Below are positions 20,088 through 51,841 of a DNA stretch of 64,000 nucleotides, piece by piece. The notes beneath the pieces are model-generated. The model was not told the origin of the DNA and made no database searches. It was given only the letters and a program-made list of their open reading frames with translations. The position numbers and the translations under genes were made by a program. The DNA is taken from positions 39,270 to 103,269 of the forward strand of contig NZ_CP119411.1 in the NCBI RefSeq assembly GCF_029223885.1, in the 5' to 3' direction. The number at the start of each line of letters is the position of its first letter. Positions within the stretch are counted from its first letter, which is position 1. This stretch comes from Pararhizobium gei (GTDB taxonomy: Bacteria > Pseudomonadota > Alphaproteobacteria > Rhizobiales > Rhizobiaceae).

Positions 20088-20519
20088 CTATTCGCTTCGG
20101 GCCGTCGCACGATGGCGTTGCGCCCTCGCCAGCTCGACAAACCGGCGCTTAACCTCTTCAAACAAGACCGGTGGCAGCGCGCCAAAATAGCCGGTTTCAC
20201 TGTCCATCGGCCTGACGTCGGGTCCGGGCCAGACGAAACGGTTACTCTCTGTCAGAACAATCCACGAGCGCTCGTCGTCAAGTCCCAGGCGCCGTTTGGT
20301 GGCAGCCGGGATTTCAACAGCGTCTTGCGGATCGGATGGCGGCGAATGCGTGACAGGCAAAACTCGCACGACCGGCGTTCCGTCTTCCAGTGTGGCAACA
20401 ATCGCCAGAACCAGCACAGGGCGGTCCTTGTCGCCCTCCTCCCGGCCTTCGAGATGCTGCCAATGCCAAAGATACGAATATCGGAACAGCCAGCCGACCT
20501 TCGGTTCAGTCGGCAGCAT
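20088..20519 (-). CDS. PemK/MazF-like toxin of a type II toxin-antitoxin pair
   Basis: One hundred and forty-three residues. The sequence GWLFRYSYLWHWQHLEGREEGDKDRPVLVLAIVA, with VLPVTHSPP, LGLDDERSWIVLTESNRFVWPGPDVRP and a helical tail, matches a family of longer PemK-like proteins common on alphaproteobacterial plasmids. Family members are taken to cleave mRNA. It overlaps the upstream antitoxin gene by 14 bases, the usual toxin-second order, and appears intact. Confidence 0.78.
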   Translation of the reverse strand: MLPTEPKVGWLFRYSYLWHWQHLEGREEGDKDRPVLVLAIVATLEDGTPVVRVLPVTHSPPSDPQDAVEIPAATKRRLGLDDERSWIVLTESNRFVWPGPDVRPMDSETGYFGALPPVLFEEVKRRFVELARAQRHRATARSE

Positions 20520-20784
20520 GCGTATCCGTCAACAGTTCGGCGTTGAGATGATCCAGGCCCGGCTCCATCCGCGATGCTTCAATGGCGCCGAGGTCATCGT
20601 CGCCGAGCATGCTCGAAAGTTCAACACGTCGATCGCGCTTTGCCAGGCGAACATAGTCCTCATAAGCAATGAGAACGGTGCGAGGACGACCGTTTTTAGT
20701 GATAATGACAGGCTCGCGGACTGCAGCGTCCTGATAGGCCCCAAAATTTTTCGAAACCGCCGCAGCGGTAACAGTTGACGTCAT
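20506..20784 (-). CDS. Phd/YefM-family antitoxin
   Basis: Ninety-two residues with the Phd/YefM N-terminal DNA-binding fold (VSKNFGAYQDAAVREPVIITKNGRPRTVLIAYEDYVRL) and an acidic flexible C-terminus that would wrap the toxin. AAAGGAG precedes the ATG at good spacing. It is expected to autoregulate through the 9-bp inverted repeat at 20799-20826. Confidence 0.88.
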   Translation of the reverse strand: MTSTVTAAAVSKNFGAYQDAAVREPVIITKNGRPRTVLIAYEDYVRLAKRDRRVELSSMLGDDDLGAIEASRMEPGLDHLNAELLTDTHAAD

Positions 20785-20860: not shown

Positions 20861-22030
20861 ATGAAGCATAAATCGCAGATCGGGCCTGCAGCTGACCAGA
20901 CGGTCCTGAAGCGCGCCGAGGAACTGGATGCACTCGATGCCATCCTGCCGTTCGATCACCGCGACCAGCTCGCCGAACTTCTGACCGATGAAGACGTCGC
21001 GACGCTCAAACACCTGGCCAGCTAGGCATGGGCGACAATACCATGCGGGCATTGGCGTCCGACCTTGCCTATCTTGAAGTTTGGTGTTCCGTCGCCACCG
21101 GCACTCTCCTCCCCTGGCCGGCTCCGGAAAGCCTGCTTCTGAAATTCGTCGCCCATCATCTTTGGGACCCAGTCGAGCGGGAAAGCAATGCCGATCATGG
21201 CATGCCCGAGGACGTCGCGATCGCCCTCCGCCTCAAGGGGTTGCTGAGAAGCACCGGACCGCATGCGCCGGCGACCGTTCGCCGCCGGTTGACGAGCTGG
21301 TCGATCCTGACGCGCTGGCGCGGGCAGACCGGATCGTTTTCGGCGCCGTCGCTGAAAAGCGCACTCCGGTTGGCGCTTCGCACCAGCAATCGCCCGCGGC
21401 AGAGAAAAAGCAAGAAGGCCGTCACCGGCGATATCCTCGCCAAACTGCTTGCGGCTTGCGCGGGCGATCGGCTGGTCGACCTGCGTGATCGGGCGCTGCT
21501 GCTGATGGCTTTCGCATCCGGCGGCAGACGCCGTTCCGAAGTGGCGGGACTGCGCGTCGAGGATCTGGTGGACGAGGAACCGGTTCGCGCCAATCCGGCT
21601 GACGAGCACTCTCCTCCCCTGCCTGACGATACATCTCGGCCGCACCAAGACGACTTCAGCGGATGACGACGAGCATGTGGTCCTGATCGGCAGGCCTGTG
21701 ACGGCACTCAGGTATTGGCTGACAGAGGCAAAGATCGAAGCAGGTCCAGCCTTTCGGCGTATCGACCAGTGGGGCAATCTTGACCGGCGAGCGATGACGC
21801 CGCAGTCCGTCAACCTTATCCTGAAATCCCGCATCAAGCAGGCCGGGCTGGACCCGGCGCAGTTTTCTGCCCACGGACTTCGATCCGGTTATCTCATAGA
21901 AGCTGCCAGCCGCAGCATTCCATTGCCTGAAGCCATGCAGCAGTCGCTGCATAAATCCGTCACACAAGCGTCGGGATACTACAACAACACCGAACGTAAA
22001 ATGGGGCGCGCTGCACGGTTGGTGCTCTGA
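20861..22030 (+). pseudogene. Tyrosine recombinase/integrase, broken by two frameshifts
   Basis: The gene lies in three frames. The 54-codon start (MKHKSQIGPAADQ to LKHLAS) ends at a TAG at 21023. The core-binding part follows from 21028 (MGDNTMRALASDLAYLE, LLKFVAHHLWDP, APATVRRRLTSWS). The catalytic part includes the first Arg region (ASGGRRRSEVAGLRVEDL). A second shift near 21615 leads to LTIHLGRTKTTSADDDEHVV and the C-terminal AHGLRSGYLIEAAS and MQQSLHKSVTQASGYY, so the HxxR and Tyr motifs survive. Rejoined, it is a normal integrase of about 390 residues. Both shifts look like single-base losses. Confidence 0.88.
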
Positions 22031-23449: not shown

Positions 23450-24184
23450 CTAAACTTTCTGGTCGAGGTCCTTTTCTAAGGCTAGCAGCGTTTGAGCAAT
23501 TCCGGCGGCTTCGGAAATATGGTCACGACATGCCACGCTTGCGGCGTCGGGGTCGTTGCGTAGAATGGCGTTGAAAATCTCGCGCATCTTTGCCGGGCCG
23601 GAAACCTTACGGTTTGTGGTGGAAAGCGTCATGACCCGCAGCCTTGAAATACGACCGTTCAGGCGCTTTACGATATCCCAGGCGATTTCGTGGCCGCCGG
23701 AGAGAAAGATCGTCTCGTAGAACTCCGTCGTTGCCGAAAGGATTGTCAGCGCGTCGTCCTTGGCGGAGTTTCGATCAAGGTCCTCCAGCACCTTTTTCAG
23801 CTTTTCCTTGGTGGCCGCGTCGGCATTGCGGGCACAATCGGCGACCGCCGTGGTTTCGAGCGCGGTGCGGATATCGTAGATCTGCCGGGCCAGGTTCCAG
23901 TCGAGCAGGGCAACAATCGGACCCTGCTTGGGGGCTGTCTCGACCAGTCCTTCCGCTTCCAGATGGCGCAGTACCTCCCGGATCACAGAGCGCGAGACGC
24001 CGAGTTGATCACACAAAGTACGCTCCACCAATCTCTGCCCTGGCGCAAAGGCGCCGGCGATGATGGCGTTGCGCAGCCTGTCGAGCGCCATTTCACGCAG
24101 GGTGATCGGCGGGTTTTCGATACGCAGCGAATCGATGTGGAGCGCGGTTTCAGCAGCGGTGGGGGCCAGTCGATTTTGAGTCAT
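23450..24184 (-). CDS. GntR-family regulator, FadR/FCD subgroup
   Basis: Two hundred and forty-four residues from the ATG at 24184. The winged helix at about 30-95 reads LREMALDRLRNAIIAGAFAP, GQRLVERTLCDQLGVSRSVI and REVLRHLEAEGLVE. The FCD effector domain follows with metal-ligand-type residues (DIRTALETTAVADCARN, ATTEFYETIFLSGGHEIAWD, ACRDHISEAAG). The frame ends just short of the IS6 remnant but looks complete. It faces the catabolic operon starting at 24281, with the palindrome ATGGTATACCAT between, and is most likely its repressor. Confidence 0.92.
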   Translation of the reverse strand: MTQNRLAPTAAETALHIDSLRIENPPITLREMALDRLRNAIIAGAFAPGQRLVERTLCDQLGVSRSVIREVLRHLEAEGLVETAPKQGPIVALLDWNLARQIYDIRTALETTAVADCARNADAATKEKLKKVLEDLDRNSAKDDALTILSATTEFYETIFLSGGHEIAWDIVKRLNGRISRLRVMTLSTTNRKVSGPAKMREIFNAILRNDPDAASVACRDHISEAAGIAQTLLALEKDLDQKV

Positions 24185-24235
24185 GTTTCCTCTTAGACGC
24201 AAGAAAGATTCGAAACAAGCTTGACACGTGATATT

Positions 24236-24247
24236 ATGGTATACCAT
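24236..24247. promoter_or_regulatory. ATGGTATACCAT palindrome, candidate FCD-type operator
   Basis: A perfect 12-bp dyad in the 96-base divergent region, 34 bases before the DUF1185 start and 52 before the regulator start. It matches the TNGTATACNA type of site known for FadR/FCD-class GntR proteins such as VanR. One copy only was seen in the window. Confidence 0.7.
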
Positions 24248-24280
24248 CCTACAGTCAGTTGACATAATACGAGAGAAACT

Positions 24281-24886
24281 ATGGCGCTCGAAATCCGCAA
24301 GACCCTGCTGCAGGTGGAAACCACACTGATCGAAGGCGGCAAGGCGGCTCCCGTTCCGTTGAAGCTGTATTCAGCTATCGCCGTGATCAAGAACCCTTGG
24401 GCGGGACACGGCTTCGTCGAGGATCTGAAACCGGAAATTCATGCCGCCGCGCCGGTACTCGGTGCGTTGTTGACAAAGATGATCATCGATGCTGTCGGTT
24501 CGGGCGACATGGTGGAGGCCTACGGCAAGTCGGCGGTTGTCGGCCTCGACGGCGAAATCGAGCATGCGTCAGCGCTCATCCATACGCTTCGCTTTGGCAA
24601 TCACTATCGGCAGGCGGTCGGAGCCAAGTCCTACCTGGCCTTCTGCAATACGCGCGGGCCGGCCAATGCGCCGGTGATGATCCCGCTGATGGACAAGAAC
24701 GACGAGGGACGCCGCTCGCATTACCTGACCATCCAGACATCGGTCCCCGATGCGCCGGCGGCCGGCGAAATCCTCATTGCGCTCGGCGCTTCGGTCGGTG
24801 GCCGCCCGCATCATCGCATCGGCGATCGCTACCAGGACCTGAAGGATCTCGGCAACGACGACGTCAACAATCCGGCAGCGGTCTGA
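24281..24886 (+). CDS. DUF1185 (amino acid synthesis family, PF06684) protein
   Basis: Two hundred and one residues. Family hallmarks are LYSAIAVIKNPWAGHGFVEDL, AAPVLGALLTKMIIDAVG, VEAYGKSAVVGLDGEIEHAS and GASVGGRPHHRIGDRYQDL. Known structures of family members show a chorismate-mutase-like trimer; the biochemical role is unproven. It is the first gene of the operon facing the FCD regulator and lies one base upstream of the hydrolase gene, so it probably handles an intermediate of the flavin-monooxygenase pathway. Confidence 0.88.
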   Translation: MALEIRKTLLQVETTLIEGGKAAPVPLKLYSAIAVIKNPWAGHGFVEDLKPEIHAAAPVLGALLTKMIIDAVGSGDMVEAYGKSAVVGLDGEIEHASALIHTLRFGNHYRQAVGAKSYLAFCNTRGPANAPVMIPLMDKNDEGRRSHYLTIQTSVPDAPAAGEILIALGASVGGRPHHRIGDRYQDLKDLGNDDVNNPAAV

Positions 24887-24887
24887 G

Positions 24888-25685
24888 ATGATGACGGTCC
24901 GGCGGTTGCAGACGCAACAGGGCGCGGCCTTTGCCGAAACCGGCAGCGGCGAACCGCTGGTGCTGATCCATGGGGTTGGCATGCGCCTCGAGGCCTGGGC
25001 GCCGCAGATGGCAGCATTGGGCAGGACGCATCGCGTGATCGCGGTCGACATGCCGGGACATGGTGAAAGCCAAAGCCTGCCGCAGGGCGCCGGACTGGAA
25101 GCCTTCGTCGGCTGGATTTCCACCGTGCTCGACGATCTCAAACTTGAGAATGTCAGCATCGCCGGTCATTCGATGGGAGCGCTGATCGCCGGTGGCGCGG
25201 CGGCGACCCTGGGTGACAGGATCGCCCGCGTCGCCCTGCTCAACGGCGTCTACCGTCGAGACTCCGCAGCACGCGCGGCAGTCCTGACCCGAGCCGCAGA
25301 GATCCGCGATGGCATGATCGACTTCGACGGCCCGTTGCTGCGCTGGTTCGGAGAGGACAGCAGGGACAGCGCCGTCTACCGGCTGACGCATGACTGGCTG
25401 TCGTCGGTAGACCAGAACGGATATGCGACGGCTTACCAGGCCTTTGCCGCCGGCGACGGCACCTATGCCGATTGCTGGCCGAGAATCCGCTGCCCGGCAT
25501 TGTTCCTGACGGGATCGGACGATCCGAATTCGACGCCGGCCATGGCGCAGGCGATGGCGCAGGCAGCACCCGCGGGCTACGCCGTGCTCATCGACGGTCA
25601 TCGGCATATGGTCAACCTGACGGCCCCCGACGAGGTCAATACGATCCTTGCTGACTGGCTGGCGCGCAAGGAGGAGCGGACATGA
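24888..25685 (+). CDS. Alpha/beta hydrolase (RutD/3-oxoadipate-enol-lactonase like)
   Basis: Cytoplasmic hydrolase of 265 residues. Motifs are PLVLIHGVGMRLEAWAPQM (oxyanion hole), DMPGHGES, nucleophile elbow AGHSMGA with S95, acid in LTGSDDPNSTP, and His in DGHRHMVNL. Its 3' end overlaps the flavin reductase start (ATGA). In a luciferase-like monooxygenase operon it could hydrolyse the ring-opened or carbamoyl product, as RutD assists uracil breakdown; that is inference. Confidence 0.9.
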   Translation: MMTVRRLQTQQGAAFAETGSGEPLVLIHGVGMRLEAWAPQMAALGRTHRVIAVDMPGHGESQSLPQGAGLEAFVGWISTVLDDLKLENVSIAGHSMGALIAGGAAATLGDRIARVALLNGVYRRDSAARAAVLTRAAEIRDGMIDFDGPLLRWFGEDSRDSAVYRLTHDWLSSVDQNGYATAYQAFAAGDGTYADCWPRIRCPALFLTGSDDPNSTPAMAQAMAQAAPAGYAVLIDGHRHMVNLTAPDEVNTILADWLARKEERT

Positions 25686-26608
25686 ACGAGACGATGATTG
25701 ACGCACGTGCTTTGCGCGATGCCTTCGGCGCGTTCCCAACCGGCGTGACGGTGGTCACCACCCATGACGAAGCAGGCCAGCCGATCGGCTTTACCGCCAA
25801 TTCCTTCACCTCGACATCGCTCGATCCGCCGCTCTTGCTTGTCTGTCTGGCCAAGACATCGCGCAATTTTGCGACGATGACCGAAGCGCCCGGCTTTGCC
25901 GTCAACATCCTGTCGGAAACCCAGAAGGATGTGTCGAATACCTTCGCCCGCCCGGCCGCCGATCGGTTCGCCAGCGTCGAATGGTCGAGTGTGCCGGGTG
26001 GAGCGCCGGTCTTTGCCGATGTTGCTGCCTGGTTCGACTGCGCGATGGAACAGGTGGTCGAGGCTGGCGACCATGTCATCCTGATCGGTCGTGTGAAACG
26101 CTTCGGAAACAGCGGTCTGAACGGCCTCGGCTATGTCCGGGGCAGCTACTTTTCCCCGGCGCTGGCGGGCAAGGCCGTCTCTGCCGCAGCGGAAGGCGAG
26201 GCGCAACTGAGTGCTGTTCTCGAACGCGACGGGCAGGTGCTGATGCTTGGCGATGATCGTCTCAGCCTGCCGACATGCGCCATGGAAGGCAGCGAACCGG
26301 CGCAGGCGCTGAGCAACTACCTGCAGGACCTGACCGGCCTGTCAGTGTCGATCGGCTTTCTCTATTCGGTCTATGAAAGCCGGATCGACAACCGGCAGCA
26401 TATCGTCTATCGCGCGTCCGCCGTCGCCGGAACACCGAAGGCCGGACGCTTTGTCTCACCGGCCGAGGTTCCGCCGGAGGCCTGCGCCAGCCCGGCGACA
26501 TCAGATATTCTCAGGCGCTTTGCCTTCGAAAGTTCGATCGGCAATTTCGGCGTCTATTTCGGCAATGAAATCGCCGGCAAGGTTCACCCGATATCCAGGA
26601 AGGCCTGA
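25682..26608 (+). CDS. Flavin reductase (HpaC/RutF-like) with C-terminal extension
   Basis: Three hundred and eight residues, about twice the usual flavin reductase length. Residues 1-165 form the FMN-binding split-barrel (RDAFGAFPTGVTVVTTHDEA, GFTANSFTSTSLDPPLLLVC, FAVNILSETQKDVSNTFARP, VILIGRVKRF). The remaining 140 residues (RDGQVLMLGDDRLSLPTCAM, VSIGFLYSVYESRIDN, FAFESSIGNFGVYFGNEIAG) look like a second, NUDIX-like or regulatory domain of unknown role. It would supply reduced flavin to the luciferase-like monooxygenase six bases downstream. Confidence 0.9.
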   Translation: MNETMIDARALRDAFGAFPTGVTVVTTHDEAGQPIGFTANSFTSTSLDPPLLLVCLAKTSRNFATMTEAPGFAVNILSETQKDVSNTFARPAADRFASVEWSSVPGGAPVFADVAAWFDCAMEQVVEAGDHVILIGRVKRFGNSGLNGLGYVRGSYFSPALAGKAVSAAAEGEAQLSAVLERDGQVLMLGDDRLSLPTCAMEGSEPAQALSNYLQDLTGLSVSIGFLYSVYESRIDNRQHIVYRASAVAGTPKAGRFVSPAEVPPEACASPATSDILRRFAFESSIGNFGVYFGNEIAGKVHPISRKA

Positions 26609-26613
26609 CCGTC

Positions 26614-27651
26614 ATGAAGTTTTCCCTCTTCGTCCATATGGAACGCCTCGATGCGGGCCAGGATCACAAGAGCCTCTACGAGGAGTTCGTGGCGCTGTGC
26701 GAAATCGCCGACAAAGGCGGCATGCATGCCATCTGGACCGGCGAACATCACGGCATGGACTTCACCATCGCGCCCAATCCGTTCATCACCATCGCCGATC
26801 TCGCCCGCCGCACCAAGCATGCAAGGCTCGGCACCGGCACGGTGATCGCGCCCTTCTGGCATCCGATCAAATTGGCGGGTGAGGCTGCAATGACCGATCT
26901 CATCTGCGACGGCCGGCTGGATATCGGCATCGCGCGCGGCGCCTATTCCTTCGAATATGAACGCCTTCTGCCGGGTCTCGACGCCTGGGGCGCGGGCCAG
27001 CGCATGCGCGAGTTGATCCCCGCGGTCCAGAAACTCTGGGAGGGTGACTACGCCCATGACGGCGAATTCTACAAGTTTCCCTCGACCACCTCGGCGCCGA
27101 AGCCGATCCAGCAGCATCCGCCGATCTGGGTCGCTGCCCGCGATCCGAACAGCCACGAATTCGCGGTGGCCAATGGTTGCAACGTCCAGGTGACGCCGCT
27201 CTGGCAGGGGGACGACGAGGTCGAGACGCTGATGGGCCGTTTCAATGCTGCCTGTGCCCAGAACCCGGCGATCGAACGGCCGAAGATCATGCTTCTGCGC
27301 CACACCTATGTCGGCTCCGACGAGGCCGATATCAAGCAGGCCGCGCATGAGATGAGCGTCTACTACAATTACTTTTTCGCGTGGTTCAAGAACGAGAAGC
27401 CGATCCACCAGGGCCTGATCGAACGGATCTCCGCCGAGGACATCGCCGCCAATGCCATGTTGTCGGGCGATATCATGCGTCGAAACAACGTCGTCGGCGA
27501 CGCCGACACCGTCATCGGCCGACTGAAGGCTTACGAGGCCATGGGCTATGACGAATATTCCTTCTGGATCGACACCGGCATGAGTTTCGAGCGCAAGAAG
27601 GCTTCGCTCGAACGCTTCATCGCCGACGTCATGCCGGCCTTTGCGGAGTAG
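26614..27651 (+). CDS. Luciferase-like (LLM) flavin-dependent monooxygenase
   Basis: Two-component monooxygenase subunit of 345 residues with the bacterial-luciferase TIM-barrel features MKFSLFVHMERLD, HAIWTGEHHGMDFTIAPNPF, ARLGTGTVIAPFWHPIKLA, GRLDIGIARGAYSFEYERL and PPIWVAARDPNSHEFAVANG. It depends on reduced FMN from the upstream reductase. The pairing with a RutF-like reductase, a hydrolase and an aldehyde dehydrogenase suggests oxidative ring opening or C-N cleavage. The substrate is presumably imported by the polyamine-type transporter downstream. Confidence 0.92.
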   Translation: MKFSLFVHMERLDAGQDHKSLYEEFVALCEIADKGGMHAIWTGEHHGMDFTIAPNPFITIADLARRTKHARLGTGTVIAPFWHPIKLAGEAAMTDLICDGRLDIGIARGAYSFEYERLLPGLDAWGAGQRMRELIPAVQKLWEGDYAHDGEFYKFPSTTSAPKPIQQHPPIWVAARDPNSHEFAVANGCNVQVTPLWQGDDEVETLMGRFNAACAQNPAIERPKIMLLRHTYVGSDEADIKQAAHEMSVYYNYFFAWFKNEKPIHQGLIERISAEDIAANAMLSGDIMRRNNVVGDADTVIGRLKAYEAMGYDEYSFWIDTGMSFERKKASLERFIADVMPAFAE

Positions 27652-27655
27652 ACCG

Positions 27656-29122
27656 ATGCAGCAATTCCAGTGTTACATCGATGGCCGTTTCGAGGAGGGG
27701 CAAGCCCGCTTTGAAAGCGTCGATCCGGCAACCGGGCTTTCCTGGGCGGAAATGCCGGAAAGCCGGGTCGCAGATGTGGACCGCGCGGTCACTGCCGCGC
27801 ATGACGCGCTGTACGGCGATGGCCCATGGCCGAAAATGACGGCGACGCAGCGCGGCAAGCTGCTCTACAAGCTGGCCGACCTCGTGGCCGCCAACGCGCC
27901 GCGACTGGCCGAGATCGAAACGCGCGACACCGGCAAGATCATCCGCGAGACCTCGTCGCAGATCGCCTATGTCGCCGACTACTATCGCTACTATGCCGGG
28001 CTTGCCGACAAGATCGAGGGCGCGCACTTGCCGATCGACAAGCCGGATATGGAGGTCTGGCTGCGCCGCGAACCGGTGGGCGTGGTGGCAGCCATCGTGC
28101 CGTGGAACAGCCAGTTGTTCCTGGCGGCGGTCAAGATCGGCCCGGCGCTGGCTGCCGGTTGCACGCTGGTTGTCAAGGCTTCGGAAGATGGCCCCGGTCC
28201 GCTGCTCGAATTTGCCCGGCTGGTCGATGAAGCCGGATTTCCGGCAGGCGTCGTCAATATCCTGACGGGCTTCGGCGCCACCTGCGGCACGGCGCTGACC
28301 GCGCATCCGAAGGTCGCCCATATCGCCTTTACCGGGGGAGCAGAAACTGCGCGCCATATCGTGCGCAGTTCGGCGGAAAACCTTGCCTCCACGTCGCTGG
28401 AGCTTGGCGGGAAATCACCACTGCTGGTCTTTGCCGATGCGGATCTGGAAAGTGCTGCTAATGCCCAGATCGCCGGCATCTTCGCGGCCACCGGCCAGAG
28501 CTGTGTTGCCGCGTCCCGGCTGATCGTCGAGCGCAGCGTCAAGGACCGGTTTCTCGATATCCTGAAGACCAAGGCCGAGGCGATCCGTATCGGGTCGCCG
28601 CTGGACATTGGCACTGAAGTCGGCCCGCTTGCTACCAGACGGCAGCGCCAGCATATCGAAACGCTGGTTGCCGCCTCGCTCGATGCCGGGGCTCGCCTTG
28701 TCACCGGCGGCAGCGCTCCGGACGGCGATGGCTATTTCTACCGCCCAACCATTCTCGACTGCGACGATACAAGCTCGCCATCGCTGCAGAAGGAATTCTT
28801 CGGGCCCGTTCTGTCCGTCGTTTCGTTCACCACCGAGGCCGAGGCGCTGGCGCTGGCCAACGACACGCTCTACGGTCTTGCCTCCGGCATTTTCACCCAG
28901 AACCTAACGCGCGCGCATCGGCTGATGAAGTCGCTGCATGCGGGTGTCGTCTGGGTGAACACCTATCGGGCGGTTTCGCCGATCGCTGCATTTGGCGGCT
29001 CGGGCCTTTCCGGCGACGGGCGGGAAGGCGGGCTTGCCGCGGCACTTGGCTATACAAGGACGAAGACGGTCTGGCTGCGCACGTCCGACGATCCGATCCC
29101 TGATCCCTTCGTGATGCGGTGA
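27656..29122 (+). CDS. Aldehyde dehydrogenase
   Basis: NAD(P)-dependent dehydrogenase of 488 residues starting at the ATG at 27656, four bases after the monooxygenase stop. Catalytic Glu is in LELGGKSPLLVFAD (about E249) and Cys in GQSCVAASR (about C283). The PWNSQLFLAAVKIGPALAAG segment replaces the usual PWNxP proline by serine, and the closest groups in memory are the semialdehyde dehydrogenases of aromatic and amine breakdown. It likely oxidises the aldehyde released by the monooxygenase/hydrolase pair. Confidence 0.92.
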   Translation: MQQFQCYIDGRFEEGQARFESVDPATGLSWAEMPESRVADVDRAVTAAHDALYGDGPWPKMTATQRGKLLYKLADLVAANAPRLAEIETRDTGKIIRETSSQIAYVADYYRYYAGLADKIEGAHLPIDKPDMEVWLRREPVGVVAAIVPWNSQLFLAAVKIGPALAAGCTLVVKASEDGPGPLLEFARLVDEAGFPAGVVNILTGFGATCGTALTAHPKVAHIAFTGGAETARHIVRSSAENLASTSLELGGKSPLLVFADADLESAANAQIAGIFAATGQSCVAASRLIVERSVKDRFLDILKTKAEAIRIGSPLDIGTEVGPLATRRQRQHIETLVAASLDAGARLVTGGSAPDGDGYFYRPTILDCDDTSSPSLQKEFFGPVLSVVSFTTEAEALALANDTLYGLASGIFTQNLTRAHRLMKSLHAGVVWVNTYRAVSPIAAFGGSGLSGDGREGGLAAALGYTRTKTVWLRTSDDPIPDPFVMR

Positions 29123-29457
29123 TGGCCATGGTCTACGAGATGCGCACCTACCGGCTGAAGAACGGAGCGATCCCTGCCTATCTCAAGGTGGTGGAAGACG
29201 AGGGCATCGCCATCCAGAAGAGGCATCTGGGCGAACTCTTCGGCTATTTCTTCTCGGAAATCGGCGTGATCAACGAGATCGTCCATATCTGGGCCTTCGC
29301 CAGCCTGGACGACCGGGAAGCGCGCCGCGCCCAGCTACTGGCAGACCCGGCCTGGCAGGCATTCCTGCCGAAAATCCGCGACCTGATCGAGGTCGCCGAA
29401 AACAAGATTTTGAAACCGGCACCCTTTTCACCGGCGGGAGGAACGCGGCCGGTCTGA
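29122..29457 (+). CDS. NIPSNAP-family protein
   Basis: About 111 residues; the ATG overlaps the dehydrogenase stop (TGATG). NIPSNAP features are VYEMRTYRLKNGAIPAYLKV, the IGVINEIVHIWAFASLDDRE strand, and the C-terminal hydrophobic ENKILKPAPFSP. These small alpha-beta-barrel proteins accompany catabolic operons and may bind or isomerise an intermediate; no reaction is established. Confidence 0.9.
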   Translation: MAMVYEMRTYRLKNGAIPAYLKVVEDEGIAIQKRHLGELFGYFFSEIGVINEIVHIWAFASLDDREARRAQLLADPAWQAFLPKIRDLIEVAENKILKPAPFSPAGGTRPV

Positions 29458-29592
29458 ACCGGCGCAGAGCTACAAGCTCGATGAACACGAGATTTCGGGA
29501 TTTTGCCACCTTCCAGGGAGAACCCGGGACGGACAGCGAACGGCTGTCCCGCAAGCCAAGAAAAACAGTCCAAACAAACGGAGCAAGGGAAC

Positions 29593-30603
29593 ATGAAAAA
29601 CAGACTGATCATCGCGGCTATCGCCGCAACACTGGCTCTCTCCACGCAGGTCCGTGCCGAAGACATGGTCTTCACAAGCTGGGGCGGCACCACACAGGAC
29701 GTGCAGAAGGCGGCCTGGGCCGACAAATTCACGGAAAAGGCCGGCATCAACGTGCTGCAGGACGGCCCGACCGACTACGGCAAGATCAAGGCCATGGTCG
29801 AAGCATCAGGCGTCACTTGGGACGTCGTCGATGTCGAGGGCGACTATGCGGTGCAGGCCGGCAAGGCCGGACTTCTGGAGAAGCTCGATTTTGCTGTTAT
29901 CGACAAGAGCAAGCTCGATCCGCGTTTCGTCACCGACTATTCGGTCGGCAGCTTCTACTATTCCTTCGTGATCGGCTGCAACAAGGATGCTGTCTCGGCC
30001 TGCCCGAAAAGCTGGGCCGATCTGTTCGACACAGCGAAATTTCCCGGCAAGCGTGCGTTCTACAAATGGTCGGCGCCGGGTGTCGTCGAGGCCGCACTTC
30101 TGGCTGATGGCGTTGCGCCGGACAAAGTCTATCCGCTGGATCTCGACCGTGCCTTCAAGAAGCTCGACACGATCAAGGCCGACATCATCTGGTGGACCGG
30201 CGGTGCGCAATCCCAGCAACTCCTGGCATCCGCCGAGGCACCATTCGGCTCGTTCTGGAACGGGCGCCTGACGGCGCTTGCGGCGACCGGCGTGACGGTC
30301 GAGACCTCATGGGATCAGAACATCACGGCAGCGGACGCCCTGGTCGTGCCGAAGGGTGCGAAGAACAAGGACGCAGCGATGAAGTTCATCGCGCTGGCGA
30401 CCTCGCCCGAAGCGCAGGCTGAAATGGCGAAGGGCACCGGCTACGCGCCGATCAATCTCGACTCACCGAAACTGATGGATGCCGAGGTCGCCAAGACCCT
30501 GCCGGATCAACAAACGGCAAGCCAGGTCAATGCCGACATGGGTTACTGGGCCGAAAATCGCGATGCGATCGGCGAGCGCTGGTACGCCTGGCAGGCAAAA
30601 TGA
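29593..30603 (+). CDS. ABC transporter substrate-binding protein, polyamine type
   Basis: Periplasmic receptor of 336 residues with a signal peptide (KNRLIIAAIAATLALSTQVRA then ED). The mature start MVFTSWGGTTQDVQKAAWAD and the cleft segments DVVDVEGDYAVQAGKAGLLE and WTGGAQSQQLLASAEAPFGS are typical of PotD-like/Fbp-like receptors. GGGAACATG gives the start. It lies 135 bases after NIPSNAP and heads the importer that likely feeds the catabolic enzymes; a stem after its stop may keep it in molar excess. Confidence 0.92.
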   Translation: MKNRLIIAAIAATLALSTQVRAEDMVFTSWGGTTQDVQKAAWADKFTEKAGINVLQDGPTDYGKIKAMVEASGVTWDVVDVEGDYAVQAGKAGLLEKLDFAVIDKSKLDPRFVTDYSVGSFYYSFVIGCNKDAVSACPKSWADLFDTAKFPGKRAFYKWSAPGVVEAALLADGVAPDKVYPLDLDRAFKKLDTIKADIIWWTGGAQSQQLLASAEAPFGSFWNGRLTALAATGVTVETSWDQNITAADALVVPKGAKNKDAAMKFIALATSPEAQAEMAKGTGYAPINLDSPKLMDAEVAKTLPDQQTASQVNADMGYWAENRDAIGERWYAWQAK

Positions 30604-30609
30604 CGATCA

Positions 30610-30638
30610 ATGCGGGCATGGCACGGTCGTGCCCGCAT
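30610..30638 (+). terminator. Hairpin after the binding-protein gene
   Basis: ATGCGGGCA and its complement flank an 11-base loop, followed by TTTC only. It is a partial terminator or stabilising stem between the receptor gene and the permease genes. Confidence 0.5.
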
Positions 30639-30676
30639 TTTCAGTTGACCGGCATTTCTTCGGAAGGGTTTTCGGC

Positions 30677-31552
30677 ATGGCCTTGCTGAGTGCGCAAGAC
30701 AATCCACCAGTGACGACAAAGCCCCGGGGGCTGCGGCCGATGAATTTCGCCCTGACGCTGCCGGCGCTGCTCCTGCTGGTGGTGTTTTTCATTCTTCCGG
30801 TGCTGTCGCTGCTGTTGCGCAGCGTGCTCGAGCCGGAGCCGGGGCTTGGTAACTACGCGGCCCTGCTCGGGTCGACGACCTATCTGAAGATCTTTCTCAA
30901 CACTTTCGTCGTATCCGCACTTGTCACAGTGGTGACGCTGGCGATCGGGTTTCCCGTCGCCTGGGCGCTGGCGATCATGCCATCGCGACTGTCGTCGGTC
31001 GTCTTTTCCATCCTGCTCCTGTCGATGTGGACCAATCTCCTGACCCGCACCTATGCCTGGATGGTGCTGCTGCAGCGTACCGGCGTCATCAACAAGACTC
31101 TGATGGGCCTCGGCCTGATCAGCGAGCCGTTGCCGCTGGTAAACAACCTGACCGGCGTGACGATCGGCATGACCTATATCATGCTGCCTTTCATCATCCT
31201 GCCGCTCTACGGCGTCATCCGCAAGATCGACCCGGCTATCCTGCAGGCTGCGGCTCTCTGCGGTGCGACCCGCTGGCAGGCGCTGACCCGCATCCTCATT
31301 CCGCTGGCAGCACCCGGCATGGTGTCCGGAGCGCTGATGGTCTTCGTCATGTCGCTCGGCTATTTCGTCACGCCGTCGCTGCTCGGCGGGACGGCCAACA
31401 TGATGCTCGCCGAACTGATCGCGCAGTTCGTGCAGTCTCTGGTCAATTGGGGCATGGGCGGTGCGGCGGCGTTGGTGCTGCTGGTCGTGACGCTCACGCT
31501 ATACGCGGTCCAGCTTCGGCTGTTCGGCACAGCACGGATGGAGGGACGCTGA
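30677..31552 (+). CDS. ABC transporter permease, PotB type
   Basis: Inner-membrane permease of 291 residues. About six helices are visible, starting at FALTLPALLLLVVFFILPVL. The family stretch MWTNLLTRTYAWMVLLQRTG and the EAA loop (ILQAAALCGATRWQALTRIL) are present. The ATG at 30677 is the first in-frame start past the stem; residues 1-20 are cytoplasmic. It pairs with the PotC-type permease one base downstream. Confidence 0.92.
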   Translation: MALLSAQDNPPVTTKPRGLRPMNFALTLPALLLLVVFFILPVLSLLLRSVLEPEPGLGNYAALLGSTTYLKIFLNTFVVSALVTVVTLAIGFPVAWALAIMPSRLSSVVFSILLLSMWTNLLTRTYAWMVLLQRTGVINKTLMGLGLISEPLPLVNNLTGVTIGMTYIMLPFIILPLYGVIRKIDPAILQAAALCGATRWQALTRILIPLAAPGMVSGALMVFVMSLGYFVTPSLLGGTANMMLAELIAQFVQSLVNWGMGGAAALVLLVVTLTLYAVQLRLFGTARMEGR

Positions 31553-31553
31553 G

Positions 31554-32354
31554 ATGCTGCTGAACTTCGATCGTCTCGGCGGATGGAAATGGGCGCTCAT
31601 CGCAATCACCGGCCTGACCTCAGCCTTCCTCATCCTGCCGATCATCTTTATCGCAGCGCTCTCTTTCGGCTCGTCGCAATGGCTGATCTTTCCGCCGCCC
31701 GGCTGGACGCTGAAATGGTACGCCATGTTCTTTGCCGATCCGCGTTGGCTGGAAGCTGCCGGCACGAGCTTTTATATCGCAGCCATCGTAACGGTGTTGT
31801 CCGTCCTGATCGGTATGGTCGCCTCGTTCGGACTGGTTCGGGGGCGGTTCATCGGCAAGGAGGGGCTTCGGGCCTTGTTCCTGACGCCGATGATCCTGCC
31901 GGTGGTTGTGCTTGCGGTTGCGCTCTACGCCTTCTTCCTGCGGGTGGGGCTGAACGGGACCGTCACGGGCTTCGTCATCGCCCATCTGGTCGTGGCGCTG
32001 CCATTTTCGATCCTTTCGATCACCAATGCGCTTGAGGGGTTCGACAGGTCGATCGAGGATGCGGCGGTGCTGTGCGGCGCCAGCCCGCTGGAAGCCAAGA
32101 TCCGCGTCACCCTGCCGTCGATCAGACACGGCCCGTTTTCGGCCGCCGTCTTCTCGTTCCTGACCTCTTGGGACGAGGTGGTGCTGGCGATTTTCATGGC
32201 GAGCCCGACGCTACAGACGTTGCCGGTCAAGATCTGGGCGACGCTGCGCCAGGACCTGACGCCGGTGATCGCTGCCGCCTCAACCCTTCTCATCGTCGTC
32301 ACCATCGCCCTGATGCTGCTGGTCGCGTTGTTGCGCAAAGGACTGAAATCATGA
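31554..32354 (+). CDS. ABC transporter permease, PotC type
   Basis: Second channel subunit, 266 residues, one base after the first permease stop. The features LTSAFLILPIIFIAALSFGS, LIFPPPGWTLKWYAMFFADP and the EAA loop (DRSIEDAAVLCGASPLEAKI) are characteristic of PotC. Six helices are visible. Its last codons overlap the ATPase start (ATGA), showing translational coupling. Confidence 0.93.
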   Translation: MLLNFDRLGGWKWALIAITGLTSAFLILPIIFIAALSFGSSQWLIFPPPGWTLKWYAMFFADPRWLEAAGTSFYIAAIVTVLSVLIGMVASFGLVRGRFIGKEGLRALFLTPMILPVVVLAVALYAFFLRVGLNGTVTGFVIAHLVVALPFSILSITNALEGFDRSIEDAAVLCGASPLEAKIRVTLPSIRHGPFSAAVFSFLTSWDEVVLAIFMASPTLQTLPVKIWATLRQDLTPVIAAASTLLIVVTIALMLLVALLRKGLKS

Positions 32355-33436
32355 GCCAACCCTTCCTGCAGATCCGCGCCTTGCGAAAGGACTATGGCAT
32401 CGTCACCGCCGTTCAGGAGGTCAATCTCACGGTCGAGCGCGGCGAGTTCATGACGTTCCTTGGGCCGTCTGGCTCCGGCAAGAGCACGACGCTTTATATT
32501 CTTGCCGGCTTCGAGAACCCAACGGCAGGCGACATCCTGCTCGAAGGCCAAAGCCTGATCTCGACGCCGTCGCACAAGCGCAATATTGGCATGGTCTTCC
32601 AGCGCTATACCCTGTTCCCGCATCTGTCCGTCGGCGAGAACATCGCCTTTCCGCTGAAGGTCCGCAGGCTGCCGAAGGCGGAGATAGACGCCAAGGTCAA
32701 GAAGATGCTGAAGCTTGTGCGGCTGGAAGGGTTCGAGGATCGTAAGCCCGCCCAGATGTCCGGCGGCCAGCAGCAGCGCGTGGCGCTCGCCCGGGCGCTG
32801 TCCTATGATCCACCTGTGCTGTTGATGGACGAGCCGCTGTCGGCGCTCGACAAGAAGCTGCGCGAGGAGATCCAGCACGAAATCCGCCGTATCCACCAGG
32901 AGACCGAGGTTACCATCCTCTACGTCACGCACGACCAGGAAGAGGCGCTGCGGCTGTCCGATCGGATCGCCGTGTTCTCCAGGGGCGTGATCGACCAGAT
33001 CGGCACCGGTCCGGAGCTTTACGCAAATCCCACCACCCGTTTCGTCGCGGAGTTTGTCGGCGACAGTGATTTTATCGATTGCCGGATCATTGCAGCGCAG
33101 GATGGACGCGCCGATGTTACCATCGGATCCAGCGCTATCCGTGGCGTGCCGTTGCACGGGCTGGGTGCTATCGGTGAAACGGCGGCGCTGATGCTGCGGC
33201 CGGAGCGCCTTTCCCTGACGTGCGGATCCGCCGCGGAAGGCGGCGCCAATCTTGCGGCCACCGTAACCGACATCACCTTTCTCGGTAGCAATATCCACGT
33301 CGCCGCTACGGCAGAGAGCGGCGAAGCGCTGTCCGTGCGCCTGCCGTTCGGCCATGAAGCGGCATCACGGCTCGCGCGCGGCGATGCCATCACGCTCGGT
33401 TTCGATCCTTCCAGCGCGCACGTTTTCAGTGCCTAG
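32351..33436 (+). CDS. ABC transporter ATP-binding protein, PotA type
   Basis: ATPase of 361 residues. It has Walker [11 protein letters not shown], a Q-loop in [13 protein letters not shown], the signature [15 protein letters not shown], Walker [13 protein letters not shown] and switch His in [10 protein letters not shown]. The last 120 residues form a TOBE/OB domain ([26 protein letters not shown]) that regulates import complexes of the polyamine/iron class. It completes the transporter (receptor, two permeases, ATPase) of the catabolic operon. Confidence 0.95.
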
Positions 33437-36045: not shown

Positions 36046-36287
36046 GGTCTCTCCTTAACATGCGGCAGGCCCCTCCGGACCGGCATTGACCTACATCCTA
36101 AGACGAGAGACGCCTTCCTCGCGAGGGACAGGTTTTCGAAATGCCTGCCACCGACCGCCCAATTTTTTTAAATTCGCTCACGATCGGCAACATCAATTCC
36201 TTTAATCTATTAAATTTGTAGATATTGTAAACAACGCTGATGACCATTACCAGCTGCCGCTTTCTCAGAACTTCGGAGGCTTTCGAG
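36046..36287. promoter_or_regulatory. Divergent AT-rich promoter region of the first sulfur-type unit
   Basis: The region between the peroxiredoxin-like and DszC-like genes is strongly AT-rich at 36160-36235. It contains CTTTAATCT at 36200-36208, which recurs at 43762-43770 in front of the second unit, and an AAATTTGTAGATATTGTAAAC stretch suited to LysR-type binding. No regulator gene lies nearby. Confidence 0.4.
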
Positions 36288-37457
36288 ATGAACGTCACAC
36301 CGCTTCGCAGCAACGTGCCGCCCTTGGCGCAGACCGCGATCGCTGCTGCTGCAGACCTCTCGGCCGTCTTTGCCGGAACGGCGCATCTCTATGATGCCAG
36401 CACCGAATTTCCGAGTGAAAATATTCGACTGCTGCAACAGGCGGGGCTGACCGCCCTGACGGCACCGGTCGAACTGGGCGGGAGCGGTGCCGGGCTTGCG
36501 GAGGCTGCAGAGGTCATTCGGTCAATCGCCCGTGGCGAACCTTCGACCGCGTTAATAATGATCATGCAATATATCAATCTTGCGACGCTCCCTGCCAGCC
36601 GCTGGCCTGTCCATCTCGTTTCCCGCGTCATCGACGACGCGGTGAAGAAGGGTGCTCTGATCAACGCCCTGCGGGTCGAGCCGGAACTCGGCACGCCGAT
36701 CCGCGGCGGGTTGCCGGCGGCGACGGCGAGATGCACGGCCGATGGCTGGGCGATCAGCGGGCGAAAGATTTACTCCACCGGCGTCGAAGGTCTGACATGG
36801 GCGATCGTCTGGGCACGAACCGACGAAGACGCCCCACGCGTCGGCGGCTTCCTCGTTCCGGTCGACAGCCCCGGTTTTCGTGTCGAGAAGACCTGGAACC
36901 CGCTCGGCATGCGCGCCACCGGCAGCCATGATGCGGTGCTGGAAGATGTCCACATTCCGCTCGACCACGCCGTCGATATCCGCCTGCCATCCGAATGGGA
37001 TGCGCGCGGCGAGGGGCAGGCGGGCTGGTTTGGCATCCTACCCGGCGCGCTCTATACCGGCGTTGCGGAGGCAGCCCGCGACTGGCTGGTGCAGTTCCTG
37101 CAAAACCGTGTCCCAACCAACCTTGGCCAGCCGCTCTCCACCGTTCCGCGCATCCAGCAGGCGGTCGGCGAGATCGAGGAACTCCTCGCCGTCAACCGCC
37201 GCCTGATTGCATCCGCCGCCCGCGATATCGACGAAGGTCTGGGCGTCTCGCCGTCTGAAGCCGGTCTCATCAAGGTCGTCACCACTGAAAACGCCATTCT
37301 TGCCGTCGAGAAGGCGCTGAAGCTCACCGGCAATCACGGCGTCTCGCGCAACAACCCGCTGGAGCGTCACCATCGCGACGTGCTGTGCGGCCGTATTCAC
37401 AGTCCCCAGGAAGACACCGTTCGCACCGGCGCGGGGAAGCTCGCGCTCGGTCTCTGA
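36288..37457 (+). CDS. Acyl-CoA-dehydrogenase-fold flavin monooxygenase (DszC/SfnC-like)
   Basis: Three hundred and eighty-nine residues from the ATG at 36288, with GGAGG upstream. The fold is that of acyl-CoA dehydrogenases (LTALTAPVELGGSGAGLAEA, ALIMIMQYINLATLPAS, GWAISGRKIYSTGVEGLTWA, NPLGMRATGSHDAVLEDVHI, LKLTGNHGVSRNNPLERHHR). The catalytic Glu of true dehydrogenases is not evident, and the neighbours are sulfonate-uptake genes. This points to the DszC/SfnC oxygenase group acting on organosulfur compounds rather than to fatty-acid oxidation. It heads a six- to seven-gene operon. Confidence 0.85.
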   Translation: MNVTPLRSNVPPLAQTAIAAAADLSAVFAGTAHLYDASTEFPSENIRLLQQAGLTALTAPVELGGSGAGLAEAAEVIRSIARGEPSTALIMIMQYINLATLPASRWPVHLVSRVIDDAVKKGALINALRVEPELGTPIRGGLPAATARCTADGWAISGRKIYSTGVEGLTWAIVWARTDEDAPRVGGFLVPVDSPGFRVEKTWNPLGMRATGSHDAVLEDVHIPLDHAVDIRLPSEWDARGEGQAGWFGILPGALYTGVAEAARDWLVQFLQNRVPTNLGQPLSTVPRIQQAVGEIEELLAVNRRLIASAARDIDEGLGVSPSEAGLIKVVTTENAILAVEKALKLTGNHGVSRNNPLERHHRDVLCGRIHSPQEDTVRTGAGKLALGL

Positions 37458-37477
37458 TCCATGAAAGGATGATATCC

Positions 37478-38602
37478 ATGCCTGTCGAAATCATCGGGTA
37501 TATCGGAAATCACAATGCCTCCGAGACGATCCCGGCCTCCGGCCCGGTCATCAATCTGCAGCATATCGCGGCGGCCGCGGCGATCCATGAAAACGGAGGC
37601 TTCGACCGTGTCCTCTTCGCCTTCCACTCGACCTCGCCCGAAAGCATTCTGATCGCCCAGCATGTCGCCGCCATCACCACAAAACTGAAGCTGATGATCG
37701 CGCACCGGCCGGGCTTCACCGCTCCGACATTGGCGGCACGGCAACTGGCGACGCTCGATCACCTGACGAATGGCCGGGTGTCCGTCCATATCATCACCGG
37801 CGGCAACGATCAGGAACTGGCTCAGGATGGCGATCATCTGACGAAGGACGAGCGTTACGCTCGTACCAGCGAGTATCTCGATGTCGTCCGCAGCGAATGG
37901 ACCAGCGAAACGCCGTTCGACTATGCCGGCAGATATTACACCGTCGATCGCGGCCACTCGAATGTCCGGCCGCAAGGTCCCGAAGGCATTCCGATCTATT
38001 TCGGCGGCTCGTCCGATGCGGCTTTCACGGTTGCCGGCAAGCATGCCGATATCTACGCGCTCTGGGGAGAAACCCATGCGCAGGTTGCAGAGACGATCAA
38101 GCGCGTTCGCGAGGCGGCAGCACCCCATGGCCGCAGCCCCCGTTTCAGCCTGTCGCTGCGACCCATCCTCGCCGAAACGGAGGACGCGGCCTGGGCGAAG
38201 GCTGCGCAACTCCTTGAAGGGGCAAAGGCGCTTCGGGCCAGTGCATCAGGAGAACGGCTGGTCAATGTAAACGCCAAGGTTGCAGGACATGAACCGCCAA
38301 ACGAGGGGTCTCGACGCCTCCTTGCCGCCGCCGCGCAAGGCGCGCGCCTTGACAAGCGGCTGTGGACCGAGATGGCGGCGCTGACCGGCGCCAGCGGCAA
38401 CTCGACGTCCTTGGTTGGAACGCCGGATCAGGTCGCCGATGCGCTGCTCGACTACTACGATCTTGGCGTCACGACATTCCTCATCCGCGGCTTCGACCCG
38501 CTTGAGGATGCCTTCCATTATGGCCGTGATCTCATTCCGCGTCTGCGCAAGCTGGTCGCCGAGCGAGACGGCGAACTTAGCCGCGCCGAGGCCGCTGAAT
38601 AA
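37478..38602 (+). CDS. FMN-dependent alkanesulfonate monooxygenase-like (SsuD) LLM protein
   Basis: Three hundred and seventy-four residues. SsuD-family segments are present: KLKLMIAHRPGFTAPTLAAR, QLATLDHLTNGRVSVHIITG, DQELAQDGDHLTKDERYART, IPIYFGGSSDAAFTVAGKHA, YALWGETHAQVAETIKRVRE. It would desulfonate alkanesulfonates to aldehyde and sulfite with reduced FMN. No dedicated flavin reductase lies in this operon; the one at 25682 or a genomic SsuE could serve. AAAGGAT precedes the ATG at 37478. Confidence 0.92.
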   Translation: MPVEIIGYIGNHNASETIPASGPVINLQHIAAAAAIHENGGFDRVLFAFHSTSPESILIAQHVAAITTKLKLMIAHRPGFTAPTLAARQLATLDHLTNGRVSVHIITGGNDQELAQDGDHLTKDERYARTSEYLDVVRSEWTSETPFDYAGRYYTVDRGHSNVRPQGPEGIPIYFGGSSDAAFTVAGKHADIYALWGETHAQVAETIKRVREAAAPHGRSPRFSLSLRPILAETEDAAWAKAAQLLEGAKALRASASGERLVNVNAKVAGHEPPNEGSRRLLAAAAQGARLDKRLWTEMAALTGASGNSTSLVGTPDQVADALLDYYDLGVTTFLIRGFDPLEDAFHYGRDLIPRLRKLVAERDGELSRAEAAE

Positions 38603-50410: not shown

Positions 50411-51841
50411 CTACGCCAGTGTGTAAGCCGTCTTCACCACGGTGAAGAATTCGGCTGCATATTTGCCCTGCTCGCGTGAGCCGAAGGAGGAGGCCTTGCG
50501 GCCGCCGAACGGCACGTGGAAATCGACACCGGCCGTCGGCAGGTTGACCATCACCATGCCGGCTTCCGAATTGCGCTTGAAATGCGTCGCATGCTTCAGG
50601 CTGGTCGTGGCGATGCCGGCCGACAGACCGAACGGCGTGTCGTTGGCAACGCTGAGCGCCTCGTCGTAATCCTTGACGCGGATCACGGATGCGACCGGGC
50701 CGAAGATTTCCTCGCGCGAAATCCGCATCTGGTTGGTGGCCTCCGTGAACAGGGTCGGCTGGAGGAAGAAGCCCGGATTGTCGCGGGTGATCGTTTCGCC
50801 GCCGAAGGCAAGCTTGGCGCCCTCCTGCTTGCCGATCGCGATATAGTCCGTATCGGTTGCCAGCTGGCGCTCATCAACGACGGGACCGATATGGGTGCCG
50901 GCCTTCAGCGCGTCATCGACGACAAGGGTCTTCAGCTTTTCGGTCAAGGCCGCAACGAACTTGTCGTGGATGCCTTCGGTGACGATCAGGCGCGAGGACG
51001 CCGTGCAGCGCTGGCCGGTCGAGAAGAAGCCCGAATTTGCAGCGGCTTCAACGGCGACGGTGAGATCGGCATCATCGAGCACGACCATCGGGTTCTTGCC
51101 GCCCATTTCCAGCTGGAACTTGCGGTTATGCTCGATGGAGGCCGCAGCGACCCGCTTGCCCGTACCGGTCGAGCCGGTGAAGGTGATACCGGCGAGATCG
51201 GCGCTGTCGAGCATGGCCTGGCCGACGACCGAACCCTTGCCCATGACGAGGTTCAGCACACCCTTCGGCAGGCCGGCGCGGTGGAGGATATCGACGATGG
51301 CCCAGGAGCAGCCGGGCACGAGTTCGGCCGGCTTGAAGACGACGGTGTTGCCGTAGCAGAGCGCCGGGGCGATCTTCCAGGCCGGGATGGCGATCGGGAA
51401 GTTCCATGGGGTGATGATGCCGATAACGCCGATCGGCTCGCGGGTGATCTCGACGCCGATGTTCGGACGAACCGACGGCAGGACTTCACCGGCCAGACGC
51501 AAGGCTTCCCCTGCAAAGAAATCGAAGATCTGGGCGGCACGGATCGTCTCGCCAATCGCCTCGGGAAGCGTCTTGCCTTCCTCGCGGGCGAGCAGCTTGC
51601 CGAGTTCGTCCTTGCGGGCGAGAATTTCATCCGCCGTCTTCTTCAGGATCGCATGGCGTTCGAGAATGCCCGAACGCGACCAGGCGGGAAATGCCGCCTT
51701 GGCGGCGGCGATTGCCGTCTTGGTGTCGTCGAGGCTTGCCCGCGCGTAGAGTCCCACCACCTCATTCGTGTTCGAGGGATTGATGTTTTCGATGGCGTCC
51801 GCGCCCGCAATCCATTCGCCGGCGATAAGATTGTTGAACAT
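50411..51841 (-). CDS. Aldehyde dehydrogenase, alpha-ketoglutaric-semialdehyde/succinic-semialdehyde type
   Basis: Four hundred and seventy-six residues from the ATG at 51841 (a longer frame to 51916 overlaps the upstream gene). Features are NNLIAGEWIAGADAIENINP, PWNFPIAIPAWKIAPALCYG, catalytic Glu in LEMGGKNPMVVLDDADL and Cys in GQRCTASSR (about C279). The PSNTNEVVG and FKPAELVPG segments recall the KGSA/2,5-dioxovalerate dehydrogenases of sugar-acid pathways. It is the last gene of the dehydratase operon and would deliver the pathway product to central metabolism. Confidence 0.88.
   Translation of the reverse strand: MFNNLIAGEWIAGADAIENINPSNTNEVVGLYARASLDDTKTAIAAAKAAFPAWSRSGILERHAILKKTADEILARKDELGKLLAREEGKTLPEAIGETIRAAQIFDFFAGEALRLAGEVLPSVRPNIGVEITREPIGVIGIITPWNFPIAIPAWKIAPALCYGNTVVFKPAELVPGCSWAIVDILHRAGLPKGVLNLVMGKGSVVGQAMLDSADLAGITFTGSTGTGKRVAAASIEHNRKFQLEMGGKNPMVVLDDADLTVAVEAAANSGFFSTGQRCTASSRLIVTEGIHDKFVAALTEKLKTLVVDDALKAGTHIGPVVDERQLATDTDYIAIGKQEGAKLAFGGETITRDNPGFFLQPTLFTEATNQMRISREEIFGPVASVIRVKDYDEALSVANDTPFGLSAGIATTSLKHATHFKRNSEAGMVMVNLPTAGVDFHVPFGGRKASSFGSREQGKYAAEFFTVVKTAYTLA

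Follow-up and report, generated by a model that had tools for sequence, protein, structure and literature searches.

We analysed a 64,000-nucleotide stretch of DNA from Pararhizobium gei (contig NZ_CP119411.1, positions 39,270 to 103,269; referred to below as the window), in which Pfam and curated-model searches identified ten rightward open frames at 24281-33436 and, facing them from the minus strand, a gene for a GntR/FCD regulator. Judged from comparison with the tgn locus of Acinetobacter baylyi, these genes are very probably a tgn-type operon of the Rhizobiaceae for catabolism of the plant compound trigonelline (N-methylnicotinate). The window forms the last part of a contig of 103,269 bases, which also carries a gene for the partition protein RepA, above its family cut-off, so the operon appears to be plasmid-borne, probably on a plasmid-like replicon of 103 kb. 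A preliminary description, made from the sequence alone, had proposed that the genes form a single operon for oxidative catabolism, equipped with an importer and faced by an FCD regulator gene, and gene content and order bear this out; every gene named there was found as an open frame. The range given in that description, 24236..33436, takes in the rightward genes but not the regulator gene, which lies at 23450-24184.

The regulator frame spans 23450-24265 and probably starts at 24184, as indicated by comparison with the 732-nucleotide gene of P. qamdonense, the product of which is 76% identical. The corresponding TgnR-like protein (23450..24184, minus strand) matched Pfam GntR (5e-18) and FCD (1e-21). 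Between the two divergent start codons lies the candidate operator ATGGTATACCAT (24236..24247), an exact palindrome that occurs once in the window, in agreement with the perfect site previously noted with the FCD repressor. The plus-strand genes encode, in order, a TgnF-like DUF1185/AA_synth protein (24281..24886; Pfam PF06684, 1.4e-65), a TgnD-like alpha/beta hydrolase with a GHSMG motif (24888..25685; Abhydrolase_6, 5.3e-24), a TgnA-like flavin reductase of the long HPA-hydroxylase reductase type (25682..26608; Flavin_Reduct, 7.3e-39), a TgnB-like luciferase-like flavin monooxygenase (LLM; 26614..27651; Bac_luciferase, 5e-53), a TgnC-like aldehyde dehydrogenase distinct from succinate-semialdehyde dehydrogenase (SSADH) (27656..29122; Aldedh, 8.2e-156), a NIPSNAP-family accessory protein (29128..29457; NIPSNAP, 6.5e-34), a periplasmic solute-binding protein of the Atu4243 clade (29593..30603; SBP_bac_8, 4.4e-42), two permeases of the ATP-binding cassette (ABC) type (30740..31552 and 31554..32354; BPD_transp_1, 6.3e-11 and 6.9e-12, respectively) and an ABC ATPase (32351..33436).

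Comparison with relatives placed probable starts at ATG codons 27656 for the aldehyde dehydrogenase, 29593 for the solute-binding protein and 30740 for the first permease, as well as at ATG 29128 for NIPSNAP, the frame of which opens at GTG 29119. The flavin reductase matched NF045919 below cut-off and PDB entry 3rh7 with 449 bits, while matches of the second permease to a PotC-type model and of the ATPase to PotA/PhnT2-type models were also below the curated cut-offs. Four-base overlaps at the hydrolase/reductase and permease 2/ATPase junctions indicate an operon-like arrangement, and the ten rightward genes likely form one operon.

Correspondence with the trigonelline genes of Acinetobacter baylyi

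In the comparison locus (L070), which is that of the A. baylyi type strain DSM 14961, an FCD regulator gene is divergent from genes for DUF1185, hydrolase, flavin reductase, LLM and aldehyde dehydrogenase, in an order identical to that of the window. Identities between the window and A. baylyi proteins were 51% for the regulator, 71% for DUF1185, 49% for the hydrolase, 44% for the reductase, 73% for the LLM and 69% for the aldehyde dehydrogenase, the last as opposed to 35% with the second aldehyde dehydrogenase of A. baylyi. The trigonelline assignment follows from this gene-for-gene match, in order, with the A. baylyi locus. TgnA and TgnB are described as forming the oxygenase by which the ring of trigonelline is opened (PMC8269262), and an LLM network lists TgnB as trigonelline monooxygenase (PMC11354265). 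The DUF1185 protein, to which no proven role had been ascribed in the preliminary description, is homologous to TgnF, which stimulates TgnE-dependent oxidation of succinate semialdehyde in A. baylyi ADP1 (PMC7913881). The substrate, previously given as unknown, is likewise indicated by the match, homologous clusters with the same genes having already been tied to trigonelline. The pathway enzymes are already known; the rhizobial cluster of the window is of the trigonelline kind and differs in its transport module.

Phylogenetic placement was in agreement with these assignments. The window and A. baylyi LLMs fell in one group (support 100/99) of a tree of 41 selected entries, with more divergent LLMs outside, and the window aldehyde dehydrogenase joined the cluster aldehyde dehydrogenases (100/100), apart from SSADHs, in a tree of 40 selected entries. 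Thus, the window contains an LLM orthologous to TgnB with an adjacent TgnA, a TgnC-type aldehyde dehydrogenase, a TgnD-type hydrolase and the DUF1185 protein TgnF, together with an FCD regulator and a conserved operator candidate. The two loci differ downstream, where A. baylyi carries a Transp_cyt_pur permease gene, a gene without a Pfam match, presumably for a porin, and a second aldehyde dehydrogenase gene above the SSADH subfamily cut-off, as opposed to the NIPSNAP gene and four-gene ABC importer of the window, which has no linked SSADH.

Recurrence of the gene set was determined in 112 loci, comprising LLM-anchored named loci (the best 80 of at least 573 confirmed), 30 from the window's family and two on plasmids; L122 and L178 are the same DNA, and related strains inflate all such counts. 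All five partners were present in 77 of the 80 named loci, the exceptions being L080 without the reductase, L107, which is a contig of 3.3 kb, and L133 without DUF1185, in which the stretch starts close to the match. The exact order DUF1185-hydrolase-reductase-LLM-aldehyde dehydrogenase was noted in 107 of the 112 loci, a recurrence that argues for more than a chance arrangement. The oxygenase itself is uncommon: among 398 genomes sampled across the phylum, 23 gave a match at E<=1e-40.

Conservation extended to the operator candidate. Within the 4.75 Mb genome, 24236-24247 was the sole place matching ATGGTATACCAT with at most one mismatch, and a reversed-pattern control also gave one place. 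Of 110 distinct regions taken as the 150 bp preceding DUF1185 (112 DUF1185 entries minus one of less than 60% identity and one other), 105 contained a match at 10 or more of the 12 positions, compared with 12 of 2200 dinucleotide shuffles and none of 226 regions, mostly coding, upstream of LLM or aldehyde dehydrogenase genes. Low scores were confined to L077, L090 (one strand), L140, L181 and L182. The palindrome is thus kept across loci of Alpha-, Beta- and Gammaproteobacteria, and in the A. baylyi locus ATTGTATACCAT precedes DUF1185 by about 64 bp.

In the route suggested by these correspondences, the ABC system would import the trigonelline zwitterion, as we infer from the gene set, and the flavin reductase and LLM oxygenase would cleave the pyridinium ring with no preceding hydroxylation. 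The aldehyde dehydrogenase would then oxidise the ring-opening product to N-methylformamido-methylene succinate, from which the hydrolase would release succinate semialdehyde, methylamine, formate and CO2, and an SSADH, probably the product of C1:81032-82474 on the main contig, would yield succinate with the aid of DUF1185/TgnF. The FCD protein would repress from ATGGTATACCAT, with release by trigonelline or a pathway intermediate. Steps of ring opening, aldehyde oxidation, hydrolysis and SSADH action were reportedly described for A. baylyi ADP1 by Perchat in 2018 (PNAS).

The choice of C1:81032-82474 as the simplest source of the SSADH step follows from its 60% identity to the A. baylyi SSADH, its score above the NF008415 equivalog cut-off and its grouping with linked SSADHs of relatives in the aldehyde dehydrogenase tree. 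Within the fetched stretches, a linked SSADH was noted in only 26 of the 80 named loci and 8 of the 30 loci of the window's family and is therefore not treated as a strict requirement of tgn clusters. The proposal that the pathway is self-contained is slightly too strong, as the last enzyme must come from elsewhere. NIPSNAP genes, which were present in 17 of the 30 clusters of the window's family, 3 of the 80 named loci and none of 8 Acinetobacter loci, appear from this distribution to be an optional addition.

The Pfam name of PF06684, "Amino acid synthesis", was derived from the fold similarity and genome context of two structures (PMC2954203). A role of this kind is at odds with both the window cluster and the TgnF report and was rejected. 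The misleading name has passed into the annotation of the tgn-cluster DUF1185 proteins of P. qamdonense and Rhizobium johnstonii as "amino acid synthesis family protein".

All eleven genes, including those for NIPSNAP and the importer, were also found on pSymA of Sinorhizobium meliloti 1021, with products 48-87% identical to those of the window (86% for DUF1185, 87% for the LLM, 83 and 81% for permeases 1 and 2 and 77% for the ATPase). The pSymA cluster differs from that of the window in that its regulator gene is oriented like the operon and a gene for an SSADH above its subfamily cut-off follows the ATPase gene; nifA and nifHDK lie beyond it at distances of about 5 and 12 kb, respectively. 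This cluster probably corresponds to the trigonelline genes reported on pSym by Boivin (1990) and Goldmann (1991). Wild-type S. meliloti grows when trigonelline is the only carbon source, whereas a strain without pSymA does not (PMC4207669), a phenotype that fits the cluster. The same gene order together with a gene annotated as SSADH was noted on pRL10 of R. johnstonii 3841. The rhizosphere-induced POPT gene pRL100248 of R. leguminosarum (PMC3333776) is possibly that of the cluster solute-binding protein, as judged from tag order.

The importer and the GABA-binding proteins Atu4243 and Pf622

The window solute-binding protein was 83.4% identical (261/313 over the mature length; 600 bits) to PDB chain 4eq7/4euo. 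In an alignment of 275 residues, it was also 62% identical to the printed Pf622 portion of 6dgv, a precursor of sensors for gamma-aminobutyrate (GABA). Residues W200, R203 and D226 (4eq7 numbering) were present in the window protein and in all 49 aligned loci; R203 and D226 reportedly contact GABA (Planamente 2012). Thus, the window protein belongs to the Atu4243 clade by overall sequence as well as by R203 and D226. Entry 4EUO is Atu4243, the GABA-binding protein of Agrobacterium fabrum (PMC6829864). The family differs from the window system in that its studied members are described as GABA proteins, while the window and its relatives encode theirs inside trigonelline-type clusters.

Linkage of this clade to tgn genes was determined from the binding protein outward. 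In the window's family, an Atu4243-type protein was matched at E<=1e-100 in 31 of 247 sampled genomes, and in 30 of 30 fetched neighbourhoods, the window's own genome being excluded, the five-gene set and a complete ABC system adjoined its gene. In the family of genome G118, taken as Pseudomonadaceae (Pseudomonas-type) from named relatives and matches, 56 of 248 genomes gave a match; among 20 of these 56 neighbourhoods that were fetched, 10 contained all five partners, 7 contained three or four, 1 contained the LLM only and 2 contained none. From the opposite direction, when named loci were anchored on the LLM, just 17 of 80 showed the ABC system in the fetched stretch, which indicates that the importer relies on tgn genes more than they do on it. 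All 8 Acinetobacter loci had a cytosine/purine-type permease instead of an Atu4243-type system. The L217 protein, 96% identical to the printed Pf622 segment, is also encoded in a tgn-like cluster; the substrate of clusters of this type is less certain, since the L217 LLM is only about 49% identical to that of the window. Two neighbouring Pf622-type binding proteins per cluster, 81-85% and 63-66% identical to the Pf622 segment, were noted in the Pseudomonas-type loci L202 and L210.

We regard as an evenly balanced proposition that trigonelline import for tgn operons is the basic function of the Atu4243/Pf622 family, with GABA a cross-recognised similar zwitterion, and that the A. fabrum repressor Atu4232 is TgnR, released by trigonelline or an intermediate and not by GABA. 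No link of Atu4243 or Pf622 to trigonelline was found in a limited search of the open-access literature, subscription papers being outside it. It is possible, though less likely than not, that the importer carries GABA and not trigonelline and shares the operon since both routes meet at succinate semialdehyde. The 83% identity to Atu4243, called highly specific for GABA (PMC3907764), the kinship with the 6dgv precursor, the retention of R203 and D226 in 49 of 49 aligned loci and the two Pseudomonas-type neighbourhoods with the binding-protein system and no tgn-type gene in the stretch speak for a GABA importer. Against it speak the location next to the ring-opening genes in all 30 neighbourhoods fetched from the window's family, the replacement of the system by another permease in 8 of 8 Acinetobacter loci and the lack of any GABA aminotransferase among genes listed in the annotations of the P. 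qamdonense and R. johnstonii stretches.

The proposed trigonelline import also bears on the regulation of atu4243, which is totally repressed by the Atu4232 protein, with mechanisms of derepression described as unknown (PMC3907764). The context of atu4243 in A. fabrum C58 was represented by a stand-in, locus L220/L167 of genome G1258, the binding protein of which is 94.6% identical to the 4eq7 chain. Genes in L220 were in the order FCD regulator, SBP_bac_3, a frame in the permease position, ATPase, iron-containing alcohol dehydrogenase, DUF1185, hydrolase, reductase, LLM, aldehyde dehydrogenase, NIPSNAP and solute-binding protein. The FCD regulator gene was thus eleven genes upstream of the binding-protein gene, although smaller genes may have been missed, and the locus numbers Atu4232 and Atu4243 are likewise eleven apart. 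All 5 such loci (L220-L224) carried one-mismatch operator copies at two places, next to the regulator gene and ahead of DUF1185. From these parallels, Atu4232 would be TgnR and its inducer trigonelline or an intermediate, and the unexplained derepression of atu4243 would fit if this is the case. The genes for the SBP_bac_3-type protein, ATPase and iron-containing alcohol dehydrogenase lie in L220 between the FCD gene and DUF1185 and are preceded by the second one-mismatch operator; L221-L224 resemble L220 by ATPase match, spacing and two operators.

The link between importer and trigonelline matters more than the enzymes, the pathway of which is known, and a possible reassignment of a GABA-binding protein family is the most interesting matter that remains. 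The link provides a candidate physiological ligand for a family of interest both as a GABA receptor in plant-microbe interactions and as the basis of engineered GABA sensors in neuroscience, as well as a concrete candidate inducer for the repressor Atu4232. If it is true, trigonelline interference becomes a practical question for GABA sensors where the compound occurs.

Evidence against trigonelline and other candidate substrates

Several results weigh against trigonelline as the substrate of the window system. The hydrolase and reductase are just 49% and 44% identical to those of A. baylyi, the A. baylyi locus compared is that of DSM 14961 and not of ADP1, and an SSADH gene (tgnE) is absent from the window cluster. 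Growth failure upon loss of pSymA does not single out the tgn cluster among all pSymA genes. To our knowledge, NIPSNAP has no place in the trigonelline pathway. Finally, Atu4243, the closest characterised relative of the importer protein, is the one described as highly specific for GABA (PMC3907764).

A pathway with the same chemistry and another main substrate, such as an N-methylpyridinium or pyridine carboxylate (e.g., homarine) with trigonelline secondary, appears quite improbable for the window. Groups of divergent LLMs (60-63% and about 48-51% identical to that of the window) inside similar clusters, as well as the occurrence of two such operons back to back in Caballeronia locus L090, are consistent with such a pathway, the divergent groups indicating that the LLM family is probably split by substrate somewhere, but the window LLM is in the 100/99 group with that of A. 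baylyi while the divergent copies are outside. For homarine in particular, action of TgnAB has been argued to be unlikely for steric reasons (PMC8269262).

The LLMs of the two operons in L090 (Caballeronia pedi) are 60% and 72% identical to that of the window, and a second hydrolase/reductase pair was noted beside an Atu4243-type importer in L076, L085 and similar Burkholderiaceae loci. The paired operons and second hydrolase/reductase pairs possibly point to a second substrate in these bacteria.

The Rut pathway includes an LLM oxygenase (RutA), a flavin reductase and enzymes of the alpha/beta hydrolase family, and the resemblance drawn in the preliminary description holds at this family level. 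A novel Rut-like or pyridine-type pathway for an unknown substrate is nevertheless scarcely credible and both readings were dropped, since the A. baylyi locus corresponds to the window cluster in each of these genes, scores with RutD (64 bits compared with a cut-off of 238.5) and RutF (93 bits compared with 254.75) were far too low and no Rut-type amidohydrolase was present among the ten window genes.

Other features of the window

Near the operon, a minus-strand frame for a Phd/YefM antitoxin and an overlapping partner frame without a Pfam match (20088-20784) may represent a toxin-antitoxin pair. Two consecutive frames at 21028-22030 resemble one broken tyrosine recombinase, of which the second alone matched Phage_integrase, below cut-off. 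On the other side, an acyl-CoA dehydrogenase-like gene is followed by a gene for a second LLM monooxygenase (36240-38602). The aldehyde dehydrogenase genes at window position 50417-51832 and at G000:C1:3145193-3146623 are almost identical (tree distance about 0.02), which suggests a recent copy between the plasmid-like contig and C1.

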